Origin: a virus
IMG/VR virus record: IMGVR_UViG_3300025096_000129
Location: 1 to 24,341 of that record
Strand: one strand, 5' to 3'
Length of the DNA: 24,341 bases
The notes beneath the pieces were generated by a model, which had not been told where the DNA came from, ran no database searches, and saw nothing but the letters and a program-made list of their open reading frames with translations. Below are positions 15,743 to 23,703 of this stretch, one piece after another. Position numbers and translations under genes: made by a program. The first letter of the stretch is position 1. Each line of letters opens with the position of its first letter.

Positions 15743-17953
15743 CTATGGACAATCAATTACACTGGTGATACCAATCAATGGTTTCTTCCTTCTAGCCTCT
15801 GCACCATCATCAGTAATAGAAAGATCTTTATATGCCATCACTGGAACAAATTCTGCTCCATATCCAGTATCAGTATTTATTTTGATACCTGGAGCAGTTC
15901 CGAACTGATCTGGAACAAATGGAACTCTGACATCAACAATAGATCCACCTGGAGTTATAGTAATTGGGAAATTGCTATTACCAATACCAATTGTATCGCC
16001 ACCAGTATAACCTATACCTGGTCTAACAACATAGATATTTGTCACAATTCCAACAACACTCGTAGTAAGACCAACAGTATTACTACAGTATCCATAACCA
16101 CGATCCAAAAGAACAACCTGACTAATGGCACCATTGTCATCTACAATTGCTCTTGCATTTACACCACTACCATGACCAGTATTATCAATTATTGCAATGG
16201 AAACGTTATCAGTATATCCACTACCTCCATTCAGAACTTCAATAGAGAATATTCTACTATCATTTCCAACAATAATTTTTAACTCTGCACCAGTTCCCTC
16301 TCCAGTAACTTCCACTTTAGGTGGAATGCATTTGGGATAAACATATCCAGGATATGCAGGAGAGATATCATCTTGATCAGTAGGATTATCATTTCTCTTG
16401 TTACATGCATCAAAGATGGAATTCTTTCCACCAAATAATGTAATAGTAGCAACAGCAGATTCAATTGAACCAAGACCTTTATCTAGTTTACCAGAAGAAT
16501 CTCCTCCAGTCAAGGTATCGACACTAGAAAGAAGATCCTTAACAGGAGTTCCATTATATTCTTTATTCAATACAGTTTCAGCATCAGTACCACCAATACC
16601 AGAGATTGCATCACCAAGTTCCTTTCCAATATTAGTGAGACTGGAACTTATACCAGTAAAGACATTCATATTCTCGACTTGTTTCTGCCAATTATCTGGT
16701 GGTTTCGGAATTGCTCCATTAACAGAAGATATCCATTGAGATGGTTTTGTACATTTAAACTCATCACATCCAATGAAACTATAAATTGATTGTGCTAAAC
16801 TACCAGCATTTCTAAGAAGACCTGTGACTTTAGCCAATCCACCAGTTAACCATTGAACTCCCTTTAAAATTGGATCCAACAAACCCTCAATTTTATCAAA
16901 AACTTTTGCAAGAAGACCTGAAACGAATTGTTCTGCAGCACAAACTGGGCCATTAACTAATCTTCCAAGTAAATTTTGGAACATATTAGAAATGAAGGTT
17001 CCAATATTATCAATTACCTTTTTAAAGACACAATACAGAAGACCCAAAATACCTTTCAATCCCTTCTGCATTAATGCATCTTGGAGGAATGATGTTACTC
17101 CTGCAGGAGATGCTTTAAATAATCCCAAAAATTTACCAAAAAGCCAAGTCAATTTACCAACAACTTTTTTCTTAACTTGATTTATAATATCTTTTAAAAT
17201 AGCACCGACTTGCTTTTTAATCTTTTCAAGTTGATACTTCATATTAACAACTTCATTAGTAATTGGATTCACCCAATCACCAGCATTTTGCTCAAGAATT
17301 TGTGTATATGCAATGAAATTCTGAAGTGCTAAAGTTATTCTACCAACTGAATTCTTTCTACATGGATCATCCAGTGCAGTATATTTTGTCGTCTTCGACT
17401 CGAATGCTCTTGCTGCATCACTTCCACCCACTTTCTTATCCTTACTAACCATGTTAGTTCCAGATTGATTGTCTGGAGTATACTTTCCATCAATCTTGGT
17501 TGCTTTAACTTTATTACCTGGATGACCTGTCCATACTTCAAAATTATTACTATCATTTGCTATAAGATCATCTTCTTTAATACTTGTAGTCACTGCAGCA
17601 GGACGATCAAGCAATCCCATAATCACTGGTTGTTGTGCTTCTTCCCCATCCATGAAAAAACCAACTGCGGTTTCTCCACCGACCAATGCATGAGTCTCAC
17701 CTCTTCCTCCAGTTCCTCCACCAACAATTGGGTCATTCATAATATGAGCCCAAGGGAGGTCAGATTCAGTCAATGAGTTATCCCAAGGATGATATCCAAT
17801 AATTCTAACCTTAACTCTTTGACTTCCATCTCCATTCTGAGCCATTGCTAAAGATTGGTCTTTCCAAACATCAGGATGGGCTACTCGGCCAATCCACCAA
17901 GTAAACCCATCTCTTCCGAGTTGATTAGATTTAAATAATGATTCGTCTATCAT
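15743..17953 (-). CDS. gp5: gp5-like baseplate hub/spike protein with OB fold, no visible lysozyme domain (736 aa)
   Basis: Residues about 18-118 match the N-terminal OB fold of T4 gp5: TWWIGRVAHPDVW, RVKVRIIGYHPWDN, LPWAHIMNDPIVGG, VGFFMDGEEAQQPVIMGLLD. T4 gp5 then has a lysozyme domain and a beta-helix; neither is visible here. Residues about 240-400 are instead a run of amphipathic and hydrophobic helices (KLTWLFGKFLGLF, GILGLLYCVFKKVIDNIGTF) ending with paired Cys (CDEFKC). Residues about 545-680 hold repeated beta units with GGSGYT, RGYGYC and PGIGYT turns. At 736 residues it is longer than T4 gp5 (575). The protein would form the central hub under the tail tube with the gp27-like protein encoded just upstream. 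The ATG overlaps the stop of the 88-aa gene (ATGA). Confidence 0.8.
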   Translation of the reverse strand: MIDESLFKSNQLGRDGFTWWIGRVAHPDVWKDQSLAMAQNGDGSQRVKVRIIGYHPWDNSLTESDLPWAHIMNDPIVGGGTGGRGETHALVGGETAVGFFMDGEEAQQPVIMGLLDRPAAVTTSIKEDDLIANDSNNFEVWTGHPGNKVKATKIDGKYTPDNQSGTNMVSKDKKVGGSDAARAFESKTTKYTALDDPCRKNSVGRITLALQNFIAYTQILEQNAGDWVNPITNEVVNMKYQLEKIKKQVGAILKDIINQVKKKVVGKLTWLFGKFLGLFKASPAGVTSFLQDALMQKGLKGILGLLYCVFKKVIDNIGTFISNMFQNLLGRLVNGPVCAAEQFVSGLLAKVFDKIEGLLDPILKGVQWLTGGLAKVTGLLRNAGSLAQSIYSFIGCDEFKCTKPSQWISSVNGAIPKPPDNWQKQVENMNVFTGISSSLTNIGKELGDAISGIGGTDAETVLNKEYNGTPVKDLLSSVDTLTGGDSSGKLDKGLGSIESAVATITLFGGKNSIFDACNKRNDNPTDQDDISPAYPGYVYPKCIPPKVEVTGEGTGAELKIIVGNDSRIFSIEVLNGGSGYTDNVSIAIIDNTGHGSGVNARAIVDDNGAISQVVLLDRGYGYCSNTVGLTTSVVGIVTNIYVVRPGIGYTGGDTIGIGNSNFPITITPGGSIVDVRVPFVPDQFGTAPGIKINTDTGYGAEFVPVMAYKDLSITDDGAEARRKKPLIGITSVIDCP

Positions 17954-18216
17954 TCGTCGTATACTCTACACTCAAATGCATCTGGATGATTATCACAATA
18001 AACCTCTAAGTGCTTATCTTGATGTCTTGTATGATAGTCATTAATAGCACCATCATTCTTATCTACCACATCATCCTTATGGTATCCTTCATAATTTGCA
18101 TGAACATCTTTCAGATCTGATTCACTGTACTCTAACATTCCATGATTAACATGTTCCTTATGATCCTTTGGATCTAAGTAAACTTCGTGTTCTAAATCGT
18201 GTTTGATTTCTGACAT
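17950..18216 (-). CDS. His-rich acidic small protein between hub and spike genes (88 aa)
   Basis: AGGAGA lies about 7 nt before the ATG and overlaps the hub gene stop region; the stop overlaps the gp5-like start by 4 nt, so translation is probably coupled to both. The protein has 11 His in 88 residues, two Cys near the C-terminus, and many Asp and Glu (for example LDPKDHKEHVNHGMLEYSES and DYHTRHQDKHLEVYCDNHPD). There is no membrane segment or signal peptide. The composition suggests metal binding, but no named metal-site family is recognised. Its position between hub and spike suggests a small spike-associated or assembly factor; unknown otherwise. Confidence 0.65.
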   Translation of the reverse strand: MSEIKHDLEHEVYLDPKDHKEHVNHGMLEYSESDLKDVHANYEGYHKDDVVDKNDGAINDYHTRHQDKHLEVYCDNHPDAFECRVYDE

Positions 18217-19568: not shown

Positions 19569-20698
19569 TAGTGAGAGAGTTTATTAAGTAAGAACAGTTC
19601 TGATATATTTACTACATCAGATCCACCACCAACTGTATCATTACCTGCTTTCGACTGTGATGGAGGTGGTTGATTGGAAGTTGATGCATTAATTATTGGT
19701 TGAACATTTTGTGAATCTATTGGATATAATATAACTGGATTTTTAGATGAATTTGTAATGTATTGTTGTTCTAAAGCCTTTGGTGTAATTGCTGCAGACT
19801 TCACTAATAGTCCTTCAATCTTGGCAGTCAAGTGTTGATACGTTCTACGATCCTTAACATCAAGTTGTGATCGAGTATTTATTAACTGATCAATCTCTTT
19901 ATTGATGAGATCCTTTTGTTTGGATGCCTCTGTTTTAAATCGATTCTTAAACTGCTCCTTTTCCAAATTTCTTTGATACTCAAGAGTACCTGGTCCTGCA
20001 TTCCATTCTTCTTTACTTAAACCATGACCTTTAGTAATATCACCGACAATTAATGTCGCAGCAAGAGATGCAGGATTTTTAGTCGCTGCAGAAGTAATCA
20101 CTTTTGCTGCATTGATTACTGGTTTTATTTTATTTTTAATTTGTATTCTTCTATATTCAAGTTCACTAACTGTTCTCAATCTAGAAGTTGCATTACGAGG
20201 GAGTTTAGGAGTCTTTGGAGTCTTAGGAAGTTTTGGAGTCTTTGGTCCTGTCAGAGATCGTCGAGCATTTTCTGGAAATCCAGTTAATGATCCACGTATT
20301 GCTGTTGATGCTGTTGTTGATGTTGTTGTTGATGATCCTGGAAGTTTAGGAGTCTTTGTAATCTTCGGAAACTTTGCAGTAGTCGGAAGTGGAAGTTTTT
20401 CTGCACCATCAATATCTACATTAGCAGTTGATGATCCATCTACATCGTTACCACCACCTTTCTTTTTATTTTTAGCAAGAGCAGCAAGAGCAGCAATCAA
20501 CGCACCCAATGCAAGTATTGGTAATAAATTAAATCCACTTTTCTTTTTTACATCACTCTTTGATGGTAACTTAATTCTTTCCAACTCCTTAGTATTCTTA
20601 GATACTATCTTTAAGAACTTATTAAAGTCACTCTCTTTTCTGAACTTTATTTTCCTAAGAGCAACAGTATTCTTAGTGGGTTTTATCTTTAACTTCAT
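19568..20698 (-). CDS. Basic membrane-segment protein in the tape-measure region (376 aa)
   Basis: Residues 1-52 are strongly basic. Residues about 55-76 form one hydrophobic segment (GFNLLPILALGALIAALAAL) followed by KNKKKGGG. A Pro/Lys/Thr-rich stretch follows (residues about 101-170) with repeated TPKLP units. Residues about 185-310 are charged and helical. The start overlaps the upstream stop (ATGA) and the stop overlaps the hub start (TAATG). I recognise no family. Its place between the larger membrane-segment protein and the hub is where contractile-tail phages carry a tape measure or a tube/hub adaptor. It could be a second tape-measure piece, a gp29-type hub protein, or an ejected internal protein. 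Confidence 0.6.
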   Translation of the reverse strand: MKLKIKPTKNTVALRKIKFRKESDFNKFLKIVSKNTKELERIKLPSKSDVKKKSGFNLLPILALGALIAALAALAKNKKKGGGNDVDGSSTANVDIDGAEKLPLPTTAKFPKITKTPKLPGSSTTTSTTASTAIRGSLTGFPENARRSLTGPKTPKLPKTPKTPKLPRNATSRLRTVSELEYRRIQIKNKIKPVINAAKVITSAATKNPASLAATLIVGDITKGHGLSKEEWNAGPGTLEYQRNLEKEQFKNRFKTEASKQKDLINKEIDQLINTRSQLDVKDRRTYQHLTAKIEGLLVKSAAITPKALEQQYITNSSKNPVILYPIDSQNVQPIINASTSNQPPPSQSKAGNDTVGGGSDVVNISELFLLNKLSH

Positions 20699-22038
20699 AC
20701 TGTTATATTACATTCTGCTGCTGTTTTAAAGCACCCATACATATCAGTGTTTCTAGAATCGAACCAAGCAATATCAGAACTAGTAGTGGTATTTCCATTA
20801 GTATTCACTAATTTTTGTCCATTACCAGTTCGATTACCACCACCTGTATTAAAGGGAATTATCGTAGCACCATTCTCATTGTTATTTTTATTAACTGAAG
20901 ATACTTCATTAACTTTATTTTTATTTTCTACTTTATTTTTATTTTCTACTTTATTTTTATTTTCTACTTTATTTTTATTTTGATATTTTGCGTCTACCTG
21001 ATTAACCATATTTGCTGCAGCCTTACTAAATTTTACACTCCAAGCTGCTACTTTAAACTGATCTTCCCTTCCCAACCATGAAGCCCTTATCTGTGCCATG
21101 TTATCGGGTACCAATTGACCATCTTTAACTCTATATGGTACTTTATTACGAAGATTTTCTGGCAATTCTTTTATCATCTTATTGAACAATGCCACCTTAT
21201 TAGCATTTATTTCTTCATTCTTATTAGATTGATTATCTTTTAAATTGGAAAGCTTAGAATCAAAATTTTCTAGGTCGGAAGTTGTTTGTCCTGTATCACT
21301 AGATGCAACAAAACCCTGTTCTTCTAATTTTTTTATTCTTTTATCTATACTATTTGTCTTTTCACCACTCTCATTCATTTGATTTCTTTTTAATTTTAAT
21401 AAAGCAAGTGTTCTTTCCTCACCAATTTCATTGATAGATGCACCAACTCTTGAATTCATATCGGTTATATCTGTATCACGAGTAAAATACTTTACAAGAG
21501 GAACATTTTCAGCAATAAGATCCTTTAGAATAAATTTAACTATCGGTGTTATAGCTTCTCTAAATTCTTTTTTTGCCAATAACCATACTAATCCTCCAGT
21601 AGCAAAACCTAACACCCAAGGATTTGTAAGTATACTAGTAAGTCCACCAATCAATCCAATCAAACCACCACCAATACCCAATAAACCACCAAGTCCACCA
21701 AACAATCCACCAAACAATCCACCTTTTTTACCTCCACCACCAAAACCTTTTGCCGTCTGAGCAATTGATTTTTTCAATGCCATAGCAATCTCAAAGGTTG
21801 AAGCAAGAGATTTCTTAATTGCTGTCAGATTTTTTTGTAGTATCTTTACTGTCTTCTTAGAACCAAAGAAATTTGTATATGCTGCTCCAAATTTCTGAGA
21901 CTTATTATCACTTCTGGGTTCTGATATGTTCTGCGTTTTAGTCTGTAATGATCTAATATTATTCTTCGCAGCACTAATTAAACCTCCTCCTGCAGGTCTA
22001 ATTACTCTTGTTGGTTTAAAAAATGGAGAAATTGCCAT
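20695..22038 (-). CDS. Tape-measure candidate with Gly-rich hydrophobic core (447 aa)
   Basis: ATG directly follows the TAG of the 58-aa ORF, with AGG just upstream. Residues 1-98 are basic and helical (KKTVKILQKNLTAIKKSLAS). Residues 99-133 are a Gly-rich hydrophobic stretch (GGLFGGLFGGLGGLLGIGGG) and residues about 137-155 a second membrane-type segment (TNPWVLGFATGGLVWLLAKK). Charged helices follow, then about four VENKNK repeats near residues 353-375. Tape-measure proteins typically combine helices with hydrophobic segments and lie right after the tail-assembly chaperones, as here. T4 gp29, the tail-length determinant, is longer (590 residues). I infer a tape-measure or gp29-like role from position and architecture; no sequence match to gp29 is evident by eye. 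Confidence 0.6.
   Translation of the reverse strand: MAISPFFKPTRVIRPAGGGLISAAKNNIRSLQTKTQNISEPRSDNKSQKFGAAYTNFFGSKKTVKILQKNLTAIKKSLASTFEIAMALKKSIAQTAKGFGGGGKKGGLFGGLFGGLGGLLGIGGGLIGLIGGLTSILTNPWVLGFATGGLVWLLAKKEFREAITPIVKFILKDLIAENVPLVKYFTRDTDITDMNSRVGASINEIGEERTLALLKLKRNQMNESGEKTNSIDKRIKKLEEQGFVASSDTGQTTSDLENFDSKLSNLKDNQSNKNEEINANKVALFNKMIKELPENLRNKVPYRVKDGQLVPDNMAQIRASWLGREDQFKVAAWSVKFSKAAANMVNQVDAKYQNKNKVENKNKVENKNKVENKNKVNEVSSVNKNNNENGATIIPFNTGGGNRTGNGQKLVNTNGNTTTSSDIAWFDSRNTDMYGCFKTAAECNITV
20913..20981. repeat. 18-bp tandem repeat, about 3.8 copies
   Basis: Near-perfect direct repeats of an 18-bp unit (plus strand ctttatttttattttcta; units at 20913, 20931, 20949 and a partial one at 20967). 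On the leftward strand they encode VENKNK repeats within the tape-measure candidate, and they keep the reading frame. Confidence 0.9.
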
Positions 22039-22215
22039 CTACCTATTTGCCTGTTGTGCTTTTAAATTTTCCTCTTCAATGTATTGATTTAAAAGACCGA
22101 GATATACTTCTCGCTCCCACGGCATCATGTTTTCAATCTCAGTTAGTGAGTATTTATGGTGTTGCATCAACGAAAAGTTAAGTTTATAATATGACTCAAG
22201 ATCAATATGAGCCAT
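22039..22215 (-). CDS. Small hub-assembly/tail-chaperone-like ORF, possible -1 frameshift extension of gp26 (58 aa)
   Basis: ATG at 22213-22215 lies 2 nt after the gp26 stop. The 58-residue product (MAHIDLESYYKLNFSLMQHH, then EIENMMPWEREVYLGLLNQY, ending QQANR) is helical and charged. The frame is in the -1 register to gp26 and is open back through a TTTTTTC heptamer in gp26. It can therefore be made alone or as the tail of a gp26 fusion of about 301 residues. Its place after gp26 matches T4 gene 51 (baseplate hub assembly catalyst). The PWERE(V/I)Y..LL pattern recalls small tail-assembly chaperone segments. The tape-measure candidate starts immediately after its stop (TAGATG). The gp51 equivalence is inference. 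Confidence 0.7.
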   Translation of the reverse strand: MAHIDLESYYKLNFSLMQHHKYSLTEIENMMPWEREVYLGLLNQYIEEENLKAQQANR

Positions 22216-22230
22216 AATTAAACGAAAAAA
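22193..22230 (-). other. Candidate -1 programmed ribosomal frameshift site in gp26
   Basis: The leftward strand reads T TTT TTC in the gp26 frame (22230-22224), the X XXY YYZ form of a -1 slippery site, one sense codon before the gp26 TAA. After a -1 slip the frame reads R-L-I and then the 58-aa ORF, with no stop. Ten nt downstream, GGCTCA (22213-22208) can pair with TGAGTC (22198-22193) as a 6-bp stem (one G-T pair) with a 9-nt loop. Confidence 0.6.
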
Positions 22231-22943
22231 CTCGTTAGACCCTCCAACGTCACGTCACTTTCAACTTTTGTGTTTGGATTCTTTACTTTGATTGTATGCG
22301 ATAACTTAGGCATAGTCTCAAAGAAAGTCTCAATCTGCTTAAATTGACCAGAGTTTAACCCTTCCATCCACTGAGTCAATTCTTTTTTAGTACAGTCAGA
22401 AGCTGCCCAAGACTCTTCTTCATTATAAACTACATCAATACATGATGAGATAATTTCAAATGACTGTTCAATTTGTGCAGCATCTTCTGCACCAAAATCA
22501 AAATTACTTTTAACAAATTCATTAAGAGAAGGATACTTCATTCTTAATGTTAAATCATCATCTAATTCAATATCAGGACTATGCTCCTTTGGTTTATTAA
22601 CCTTTATCTCATCAATATAAATTTTGACTTCGACTTGAGTTTCTTCATCATCGGGACATGTCACAACTAAATCAATTGCTTCTCCAACTGACTTCCCTCG
22701 AATATTCAAAAAGATATATTCAATATCAAATGTTGGTAGGTCATCAACTTTAATTCCCCTTGTACTGATACAAGACTTCAAAGTTGTTTTAATGGCATCA
22801 GTAATTTGTTTCTGATCTCCACTTTCCATTGCAAGAATTAATATCTTCTCTTCTCGTACAAGAAATGGACGATATTTTATCTTCTTCCCAGAAGAAGGTA
22901 GTACCAACTCATAGGTTGGAGTAGTAATTTTTGGTAAAGGCAT
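22218..22943 (-). CDS. gp26: gp26 baseplate hub protein (241 aa)
   Basis: The N-terminus carries the gp26/T4 baseplate-protein signature: YELVLPSSGKKIKYRPFLVR, followed directly by EEKILILAMESGDQKQITDAIK. Acidic helical sequence follows, including DAAQIEQSFEIISSC and ELTQWMEGLNSGQFKQIETF. The length is near that of T4 gp26 (208). In T4, gp26 acts with gp51 in building the central baseplate hub. Here it sits between a tube-family gene and a tape-measure candidate, which is where other phages carry tail-assembly chaperones. It ends ...TSFFV with a slippery run at the two Phe codons. The nearest SD-like AGGTG is about 13 nt before the ATG, a long spacing; a TCTAAATA late-promoter-like octamer lies 25 nt upstream. 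Confidence 0.85.
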   Translation of the reverse strand: MPLPKITTPTYELVLPSSGKKIKYRPFLVREEKILILAMESGDQKQITDAIKTTLKSCISTRGIKVDDLPTFDIEYIFLNIRGKSVGEAIDLVVTCPDDEETQVEVKIYIDEIKVNKPKEHSPDIELDDDLTLRMKYPSLNEFVKSNFDFGAEDAAQIEQSFEIISSCIDVVYNEEESWAASDCTKKELTQWMEGLNSGQFKQIETFFETMPKLSHTIKVKNPNTKVESDVTLEGLTSFFV

Positions 22944-22968: not shown

Positions 22969-22976
22969 TATTTAGA
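22969..22976 (-). promoter_or_regulatory. Late-promoter-like variant TCTAAATA before gp26
   Basis: Differs from TATAAATA at one base and lies 25 nt before the gp26 ATG, close to the spacing of the two better late-promoter candidates. It overlaps the stop codon of the upstream tube-family gene. In AT-rich DNA this could be chance. Confidence 0.3.
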
Positions 22977-23703
22977 TGGCAATTCTAACCTCTCCATGTT
23001 TTTCAACAGTGTGTCGTAAGTAACTAAAAGTAACTGACACTTGAGTGATTGTACTACCCTCATATGTTAATGGTATAGAGTTAAGAGTTCTTGGGAACGC
23101 ATCAATAAACCTATACGTTAACATAGGTTGATTGGTGAATTTCTTCTTCTTTGCATTTGGACTCTGTACAAGATCTCTTTCAAATTTAGTAATTGATAAC
23201 ACTCTCTTATACTCATCAGGATATCTCATCCTTGCATATGAATTCCGTTCTCTATATTGATTCAATTGGCCAACAACTCTTCCATCATATCTACCATTAC
23301 TCTCATTGTGTATTGGATTAATATAATTCATCCACTCCTCAAATAGTCTCAAAATATTATATTGATTATCCACATAGAAAGTTAAATCAAATTCAGTATA
23401 TAATCTTCTTGTAGCAATCTTCTCAAGCATTCCCTGTCTAGATCCAGGTTCTTCTACAACATCAAAATCGGTTGAAGGAAGAGTTGCATCAGAACATAAG
23501 AAGTCATACTTCTCATCTGTGGATTTAACATCCAAAAAGAGACCGCAATTAGTTAAGTATTCAAGTAAATCCAAATCATTACCCGTAGGGGATCTACGAA
23601 CAAGATCCAATGAAACCTTGAACTGACTTGAGATTGCAAGTTTGGAAAGGATCGAACTTGCGTCCGACATATTCAAATATAGTGATTCCGTATCGACAGA
23701 CAT
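22972..23703 (-). CDS. Tail tube/tube-initiator family protein, gp54- or gp48-like (243 aa)
   Basis: The layout fits the gp19/gp54 tube-fold family: an N-terminal FKVSLDLVRR strand, a central LTFYVDNQYNILRLFEEWMN (compare the EACNYRAMQDWVNSV region of T4 gp54), and a C-terminal AFPRTLNSIPLTYEGSTITQ followed by VSVTFSYLRH (compare ISVSAPELSYDGDNQITTFD in gp54). The length lies between T4 gp19 (163) and gp54 (320). These proteins form or start the tail tube on the baseplate; the location before gp26 suggests a tube initiator rather than the main tube. No Shine-Dalgarno is visible before the ATG. Assignment to the family is fairly good; the exact member (gp54, gp48 or a tube paralogue) is not settled. 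Confidence 0.68.
   Translation of the reverse strand: MSVDTESLYLNMSDASSILSKLAISSQFKVSLDLVRRSPTGNDLDLLEYLTNCGLFLDVKSTDEKYDFLCSDATLPSTDFDVVEEPGSRQGMLEKIATRRLYTEFDLTFYVDNQYNILRLFEEWMNYINPIHNESNGRYDGRVVGQLNQYRERNSYARMRYPDEYKRVLSITKFERDLVQSPNAKKKKFTNQPMLTYRFIDAFPRTLNSIPLTYEGSTITQVSVTFSYLRHTVEKHGEVRIAI

Follow-up and report, generated by a model that had tools for sequence, protein, structure and literature searches.

Do gp26 and the 58-residue open reading frame (ORF) that follows it encode two separate proteins, or are they a single tail assembly chaperone gene whose second part is reached by a programmed -1 frameshift? The question is raised by the linear virus record IMGVR_UViG_3300025096_000129, whose 24,341 bases form the stretch analysed here (the window) and which, judged from the relatives of its gp26, is derived from a T4-like marine phage. 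On the sequence signals described below, we consider it very probable that a programmed -1 frameshift makes a short and a long tail assembly chaperone from gp26 and the 58-residue ORF. In the mechanism proposed, both would be parts of one recoded gene. Most ribosomes would end at the gp26 stop, giving rise to a short chaperone of 241 residues. A minority would pause, with a GGAGGG element paired with the 16S rRNA behind them and a hairpin in front, and would slip back by one base on T TTT TTC, where TTT-TTC would re-pair as TTT-TTT; these ribosomes would bypass the stop and produce a 301-residue fusion of gp26 and a gp51 domain. By analogy with gpG/gpGT of phage lambda, the role of the short form would be to coat the tape measure protein and that of the gp51 extension to bring in subunits of the tube or hub, after which both forms would leave.

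Gene order and slippery site in the window

The genes concerned are all located on the minus strand. Upstream of gp26 lies a gene of the tail tube family (22972..23703; Phage_TTP_2 PF23849, E 3.8e-19; PHROG_45, E 1.6e-34). It is followed by the gp26 ORF (22218..22943; T4_baseplate PF12322, E 3.3e-75; PHROG_150, E 1.3e-82), which would encode the short chaperone form (TAC-N), and by the ORF that would be annotated as gp51 (22039..22215; PHROG_634, baseplate hub assembly catalyst gp51, E 2.5e-27). The latter also matches positions 241-278 of the 282-position PHROG_150 gp26 profile (E 1.9e-5), which was a first hint that some members of the family hold both parts. The next gene downstream encodes 447 residues (20695..22038) and is a tape-measure candidate by position only. 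Its translation contains a Gly-rich hydrophobic stretch; no PHROGs family matched it at 0.1, Pfam gave nothing above a curated cut-off, and its iterated profile matched none of 17 named loci and likewise gave no link to T4. The first-pass annotation had placed the pair between a tube-family gene and a tape-measure candidate, of which the tube-family assignment stands and the tape-measure identity is left unconfirmed by these searches.

Two other loci, those of Vibrio phage D484 (L166, 5083-5644) and Aeromonas phage ZPAH1 (L178, 5673-6333), carry a second tail-tube-family ORF downstream of the chaperone and the large gene. Elsewhere in the window, an 88-residue ORF (17950-18216) that adjoins the tail lysozyme/hub gene was found to contain a CP12 C-terminal domain (PF02672, E 6.8e-8; PHROG_2603); CP12 is a regulator of the Calvin cycle and is carried by cyanophages.

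The gp26 gene runs from 22943 to 22218 and ends in ACG AGT TTT TTC GTT TAA. Its heptamer T TTT TTC (22224..22230) has the X XXY YYZ phase and is followed by one sense codon, GTT, and the 0-frame stop codon TAA (22218..22220). The -1 frame entered at the heptamer reads R-L-I-M-A-H and continues free of stops into the 58-residue ORF. This open extension of 61 residues (22039..22224; RLI plus the 58 residues of gp51) would be the TAC-C part of the fusion, to which gp26 would contribute 240 residues. A heptamer separated from the gp26 stop by a single sense codon, and a stop-free passage through R-L-I to a product of about 301 residues, had been claimed in the first-pass annotation; both were borne out on the sequence, the length being 301 exactly. 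No other in-frame X XXY YYZ is present in the gp26 of the window. Among the 15 minus-strand ORFs taken as genes there is one further in-frame TTTTTTY. This TTTTTTC is located far from the end of the tail lysozyme/hub gene (15743-17953), and there is no sign of its use.

Conservation of the junction among relatives

In total, 283 loci were assembled. We excluded those of T4, 44RR and ZHF as well as 10 incomplete ones, which left 270 junctions that include the window twice (as itself and as L159) and some overlapping loci on one contig. After removal of L102, L181 and L159, the remaining 267 loci were reduced to 126 representatives with gp26 proteins less than 85% identical. A scan of viral contigs with the gp26 of Vibrio phage D484 found no relative.

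The alignment of junctions across relatives showed a strictly kept reading register. A gp51 profile match was obtained in 266 of the 270 junctions, always in the -1 register and never in another, and in 265 it was located in the same open -1 ORF, the exception being L181, which has a broken gp26. The same holds for 122 of the 126 representatives, and for L165, L168, L169 and L174 there was no match at the threshold. Exactly 8 nt separate gp26 residue 240 from the start position of gp51 in 153 of 154 viral-contig loci with both genes, some of which overlap on one contig; L102 is the exception. Its gp26 is devoid of the 3' end including the heptamer and stops just before gp51, as a result of either a deletion or an assembly fault. 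All 15 named phages, belonging to at least eight taxa according to record labels, have an open -1 frame of at least 59 codons across the stop.

The heptamer is similarly widespread. TTTTTTY was present in 249 of the 270 junctions, and the 21 junctions without it correspond to 19 of the Ackermannviridae type (4 named phages and 15 PhaxI-related contigs), L102 and L181. At the level of representatives, 112 have TTTTTTC and 9 have TTTTTTT, so that 121 of 126 carry an in-frame TTTTTTY; the other five (L165, L170, L173, L174 and L200) are Ackermannviridae or their kin and have kept a T_TTY tetramer. It is in frame in 12 of the 15 named phages, and the three without it are Ackermannviridae. The gp26 stop lies one codon past the heptamer, as in the window, in 107 of the 121 heptamer-bearing representatives, and it is TAA in 46, TAG in 36 and TGA in 25 of these. 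The first-pass annotation had named the loss of the heptamer, or another register of the second ORF, in relatives as grounds for refutation; its reading came through this comparison, as heptamer and -1 register are both conserved. The heptamer U_UUU_UUC is among the more efficient ones according to PMC4066793.

The 19 loci of the Ackermannviridae type (L165, L170, L173, L174 and L190-L204) lack the heptamer, yet their -1 frame is open and a T_TTY tetramer occupies the equivalent position, the sites being ATT TTC, GTT TTC and CTT TTT, and gp51 was detected in 17 of them, in the -1 register. These sites may still shift by A-site re-pairing and are candidate single-tRNA frameshift sites; for E. 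coli tetramers, U_UU.C and U_UU.U are given as the next best after A_AA.G (PMC4066793).

Codon choice at the slippery site is fixed. The Phe239 codon is TTT in all 121 heptamer-bearing representatives, as compared with a TTT fraction of 0.69 for Phe elsewhere in gp26, and the preceding codon, for which seven different ones are used, ends in T in all 121. Among 186 columns, Phe239 has the lowest and residue 238 the second lowest normalised synonymous entropy. Within the same 121 open frames, T|TTTTTY was found at only 5 of 118 interior Phe-Phe pairs. Binomial p-values for codon bias, here and below, take no account of shared ancestry and serve only as a guide; the argument is carried by the column and segment controls.

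RNA signals flanking the slip site

An internal Shine-Dalgarno (SD)-like element, GGAGGG (22240..22245, minus strand), lies 9 nt before the heptamer and is a putative stimulator. A Glu-Gly pair is present at this fixed place in 104 of the 121 representatives. The codon of Glu234 is GAG in 89 of these 104, as compared with a background of 0.28 elsewhere in gp26, and 63 of 93 codons for the preceding Leu have a final G (background 0.29). For 15 well-populated Glu columns, the GAG fraction was 0.86 at Glu234, 0.72 at Glu12 and 0.10-0.38 at the other 13. Pairing energies with the anti-SD sequence, calculated using the 16S rRNA tail, reach their minimum just at this site, with a mean of -7.6 vs 0.07 (sd 1.4) across the scanned positions. 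The element was at or below -5 kcal/mol in 103 of the 121 representatives, and the best site of the approximately 330 nt scanned falls there in 69 of them, the window included, and elsewhere in 52. The SD-like element is under synonymous constraint.

A second, weaker sign of RNA-level constraint was observed at the gp26 start (codons 1-14, window 22943-22902), where the GAG fraction of Glu12 is 0.72 and the fraction of Leu13 codons with a final G is 0.86. The first two gp26 windows, analysed for 60 of the 121 representatives, have a modest structure excess (mean z -1.29 and -1.13), and a start-region element is possible.

Downstream of the heptamer, the window can form a hairpin (22190..22216, minus strand; arms 22216-22208 and 22198-22190) that holds the gp51 ATG. 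Its stem of 9 bp, including one G-U pair, has a 9-nt loop and begins 7 nt after the heptamer. The stem of 6 bp located 10 nt downstream that had initially been pointed out is thus present, but is larger and nearer. The fold of 22223-22150 has an energy of -14.1 kcal/mol (z -2.95), and 1 of 200 shuffled sequences was as stable. In an alignment (A3) of 82 of the 121 heptamer-bearing representatives, which leaves out distant groups with other sequences at this place, two more pairs are possible below the stem, one in 80 and the other in 50 of 80 distinct sequences, so that the extended stem has up to 11 pairs and starts 5 nt after the heptamer.

The case for the hairpin is based on the folding of each sequence against a codon-preserving null and on pair counts for a named structure. 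Compared with the resampling of synonymous codons, the 121 representatives had a mean z of -2.75, with p <=0.05 in 88 (again 88 when the resampling was repeated) and a z of -3.5 for the window. Control segments in the later extension had mean z values of -0.17 to -0.34, with 10 to 16% of sequences at p 0.05, which is somewhat above nominal, and interior gp26 control windows beyond the first two had z values of -0.73 to +0.03 (60 of 121 representatives, approximate start points). Among 107 representatives with the same spacing, 72 keep 8 or 9 of the 9 pairs, and 78.4% of the cells are paired, as compared with 21-41% for slid partners. Third positions facing the stem favour pairing in these 107: GAG in 72 of 78, TCA in 71 of 77, CTT in 70 of 100 and GCT in 49 of 67. 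Other extension columns have GAG at 0.14-0.61, TCA at 0.25 and CTT at 0.01-0.53, and these controls are partly unclean, with one other Glu column at 0.61 for GAG and one Leu column at 0.53 for CTT. The hairpin is more stable than the encoded protein predicts and is under synonymous constraint.

The alignment A3 provides further data on this structure. In the 11-pair version, 89.9% of its cells are paired as compared with 26-45% for slid partners, a favourable figure since distant groups are excluded; shuffles already gave a mean of 87.0%, and none of 500 reached the observed value. One stem pair occurs as U-A, A-U and G-C. Changes on both sides were seen in 3 pairs, a number that 39 of 500 shuffles also reached, and in 13 cells, fewer than for three of six slides, namely -2 (21), -1 (17) and +2 (25). 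RNAalifold returned no consensus hairpin for A3, and a local alifold run likewise gave none. Taken alone, the covariation evidence for the hairpin is thin. The hairpin signal at p 0.05 was found in 77 of 87 representatives with the gp51 ATG vs 11 of 34 without it, some of the latter forming other stems in this region. Both stimulators, that is, an SD-like element at or below -5 kcal/mol and a hairpin at p 0.05, were present in 77 of the 121 representatives.

Products, rival readings and known systems

Links to the T4 proteins emerge from profile comparisons. The profiles used were built without T4, 44RR and ZHF and hold ZPAH1 (Straboviridae); the iterated profiles with which their members were collected did include T4, 44RR and ZHF, and E-values were scaled to 1000 sequences. 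T4 gp26 matched the gp26 profile at E 7.6e-26. The open frame of T4 gp51 matched both the gp26 profile (residues 43-215, E 1.3e-4) and the gp51 profile (residues 236-273, E 6.5e-7), as did gp51 of 44RR (E 8e-8 and 3.8e-10, respectively) and of ZHF (E 5.1e-5 and 1e-11). Judged from these matches, T4 gp51 is one chain that joins a gp26-like and a gp51-like domain, so that T4 has a separate gene for the long form. Aeromonas phage ZPAH1 (L178), classed in Straboviridae like T4, has the heptamer and a gp51 in the -1 register, unlike T4, 44RR and ZHF. Both arrangements occur under the name Straboviridae, which by these sequences places the switch to two genes inside that family.

The AlphaFold2 model of gp26 (50 sequences) has a mean pLDDT of 85.9, and that of gp51 has three helices and a pLDDT of 78. 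Searched against BFVD, the gp26 model matched gp26 proteins of the T4-like kind and, with a weaker match (E 1.2e-5; TM 0.35 and 0.42), gp51 of an Acinetobacter phage. Against solved structures, the top two Foldseek hits were to the HK97 tail assembly chaperone 2ob9, with E-values of 0.65 and 0.97 that are not significant. Upon realignment of the hits, 3fgx had a Z of 7.9, 2ob9 of 7.8 and 3klu (YqbN) of 7.0, the next being 5.0, and according to a warning of the tool a Z below 8 may mean a common arrangement only. All three alignments fall within gp26 residues 1-95, and we take 3klu to be a member of a phage chaperone family. Residues 1-86 of gp26 align with 2ob9 over 84 residues with an rmsd of 4.0, but with 8% identity and with gp26 being more than twice as long. 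Overall, the gp26 model resembles the HK97 chaperone weakly to moderately in structure, and no relevant chain was retrieved from PDB sequences with the gp26 profile. PMC3004832 lists T4 gp26 and gp51 among the hub assembly chaperones and describes gp51 as required yet absent from the particle. According to the same source, genetics is said to support T4 gp26 as a part of the hub, which is a poor fit to a chaperone that leaves. The view of gp26 and gp51 as a frameshifted chaperone pair, put forward in the first-pass annotation, gains support from the two-domain gp51 of T4, the T4 hub-chaperone listing and the fold similarity to the HK97 protein.

An alternative to the frameshift is the synthesis of two separate proteins, with gp51 translated from its own ATG (22215) by termination-reinitiation and the T run being incidental. 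Records list gp51 as a separate gene, and an ATG precedes the gp51 core in 94 of the 121 representatives, the first one being at the same codon in 86. However, this ATG is inside the hairpin and lacks an SD sequence, the mean anti-SD energy being -1.0 kcal/mol, as compared with -8.4 kcal/mol at the element before the heptamer in the 87 representatives with that ATG. Furthermore, the ATG is absent in 27 of the 121 representatives, of which 6 have only GTG or TTG and 21 have none of the three, and these 21 keep the gp51 domain in the -1 frame nonetheless. In these 21 the fusion is the likely source of gp51, although a rarer start such as CTG, found at the usual ATG codon in 4 of 107 representatives, could serve instead. 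In line with such missing starts, gp51 is annotated from an inner ATG in P-HM2 and is unannotated in ACG-2014d. Separate translation also leaves the fixed heptamer, the SD-like element and the hairpin unexplained; we regard it as very unlikely, and, as far as can be judged from sequence, the fusion is likely to be the product that carries the gp51 domain. The two modes might coexist in lineages that keep the ATG, resulting in three products, and the conserved position of this codon in 86 of the 121 representatives and the closeness of the gp26 stop and the gp51 start are in favour of this. Yet the start would again be without an SD sequence and within the hairpin, and the columns of the ATG themselves take part in stem pairs and may be conserved for the sake of the structure; such a combination is unlikely, though worth keeping in mind.

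The frame change might also arise before translation or outside the cell. The homopolymer at the site is what transcriptional slippage would need to generate mRNAs of altered length encoding the fusion, but the T6 run is short, it has the phase of tandem slippage in all 121 carriers, and the other five representatives do not have such a run there. The Ackermannviridae, with shorter T runs, keep the register wherever gp51 was detected, and the SD-like element and the hairpin point to the ribosome, making this explanation extremely improbable. That a sequencing error or a decayed gene fusion underlies the break is suggested by nothing other than a frame change at a homopolymer, and it can be dismissed almost entirely, since the break recurs across many contigs and isolates, in 265 of 270 junctions (some loci overlap on one contig), and makes use of all three stop codons. 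Stand-alone gp51, transcriptional slippage and sequencing error were rejected on these grounds. Returning to the programmed -1 frameshift, we hold a more detailed version of it with moderate confidence: a full cassette of the dnaX type would set the ratio of short to long form, the hairpin would bury the gp51 start so that gp51 is made as a fusion only, and lineages would have kept the frameshift (including ZPAH1), reduced it (the tetramer of the Ackermannviridae) or adopted a separate long gene (T4, 44RR and ZHF). We infer from the signals and their conservation that slippage occurs, and its frequency and role, as well as the chaperone action, would be as outlined at the outset.

Vladimirov, Gautam and Davidson reportedly found frameshifting in several T4-like groups in 2022, with a poly-T -1 slippery signal. 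Papers citing this work (Virology 566:9-15) credit it with the identification of T4-like tail assembly chaperones with frameshifting; that on phage Adele (PMC12846349) refers to it on the poly-T signals of chaperone genes in T4-like phages, and the PRFect paper on the use of a separate long gene by some of these phages. Going by these citing papers, the idea of a frameshifted gp26/gp51 chaperone is already in print since 2022, with the same genes, the same short and long forms and the same poly-T -1 signal. The present analysis describes the SD-like element, the hairpin and the start-less lineages of gp51, which may also be covered in the full text of that article; among the literature matches listed, which did not extend to this full text, no description of an SD-like element or hairpin at gp26-gp51 was recognised. 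What looks new is the completeness and conservation of the RNA signals around the slip site.

Xu, Hendrix and Duda are said to have described lambda gpG/gpGT and similar frameshifted chaperones in 2004. The lambda heptamer differs from T TTT TTC, and the T4-like tail is contractile. The lambda system resembles the present one in having a -1 frameshift near the end of the short ORF, a long form in the minority and adjoining tail genes (PMC5009743). Phage Adele, of the Vandenendeviridae, has a conserved -1 extension and an invariant poly-T motif; it belongs to another family, its motif is GTTTTT, and an SD-like element or hairpin is absent from the description in the excerpted text of PMC12846349. 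On sequence features, the layout at gp26-gp51 is very close to that of E. coli dnaX, which has a homopolymeric heptamer with an upstream SD-like element (PMC3711429, PMC5009743) and an 11-bp hairpin 5 nt downstream (PMC8861025), as compared with 9 to 11 bp at 5-7 nt here. The genes are unrelated, and slipping gives the shorter product in dnaX whereas it would give the longer one here.

T4-like phages abound in the sea, and the records examined have gp51 as a tiny separate baseplate gene, in shortened form or unannotated. Treating gp26-gp51 as one recoded chaperone gene would correct this annotation and would tie the locus to a general mechanism of tail assembly. Furthermore, the 121 representatives provide naturally varied candidates for bacterial frameshift sites, of which 77 show the two additional signals at the cut-offs chosen, and, together with the lineages that appear to have lost parts of the cassette, they may serve as material for testing the contribution of each signal.
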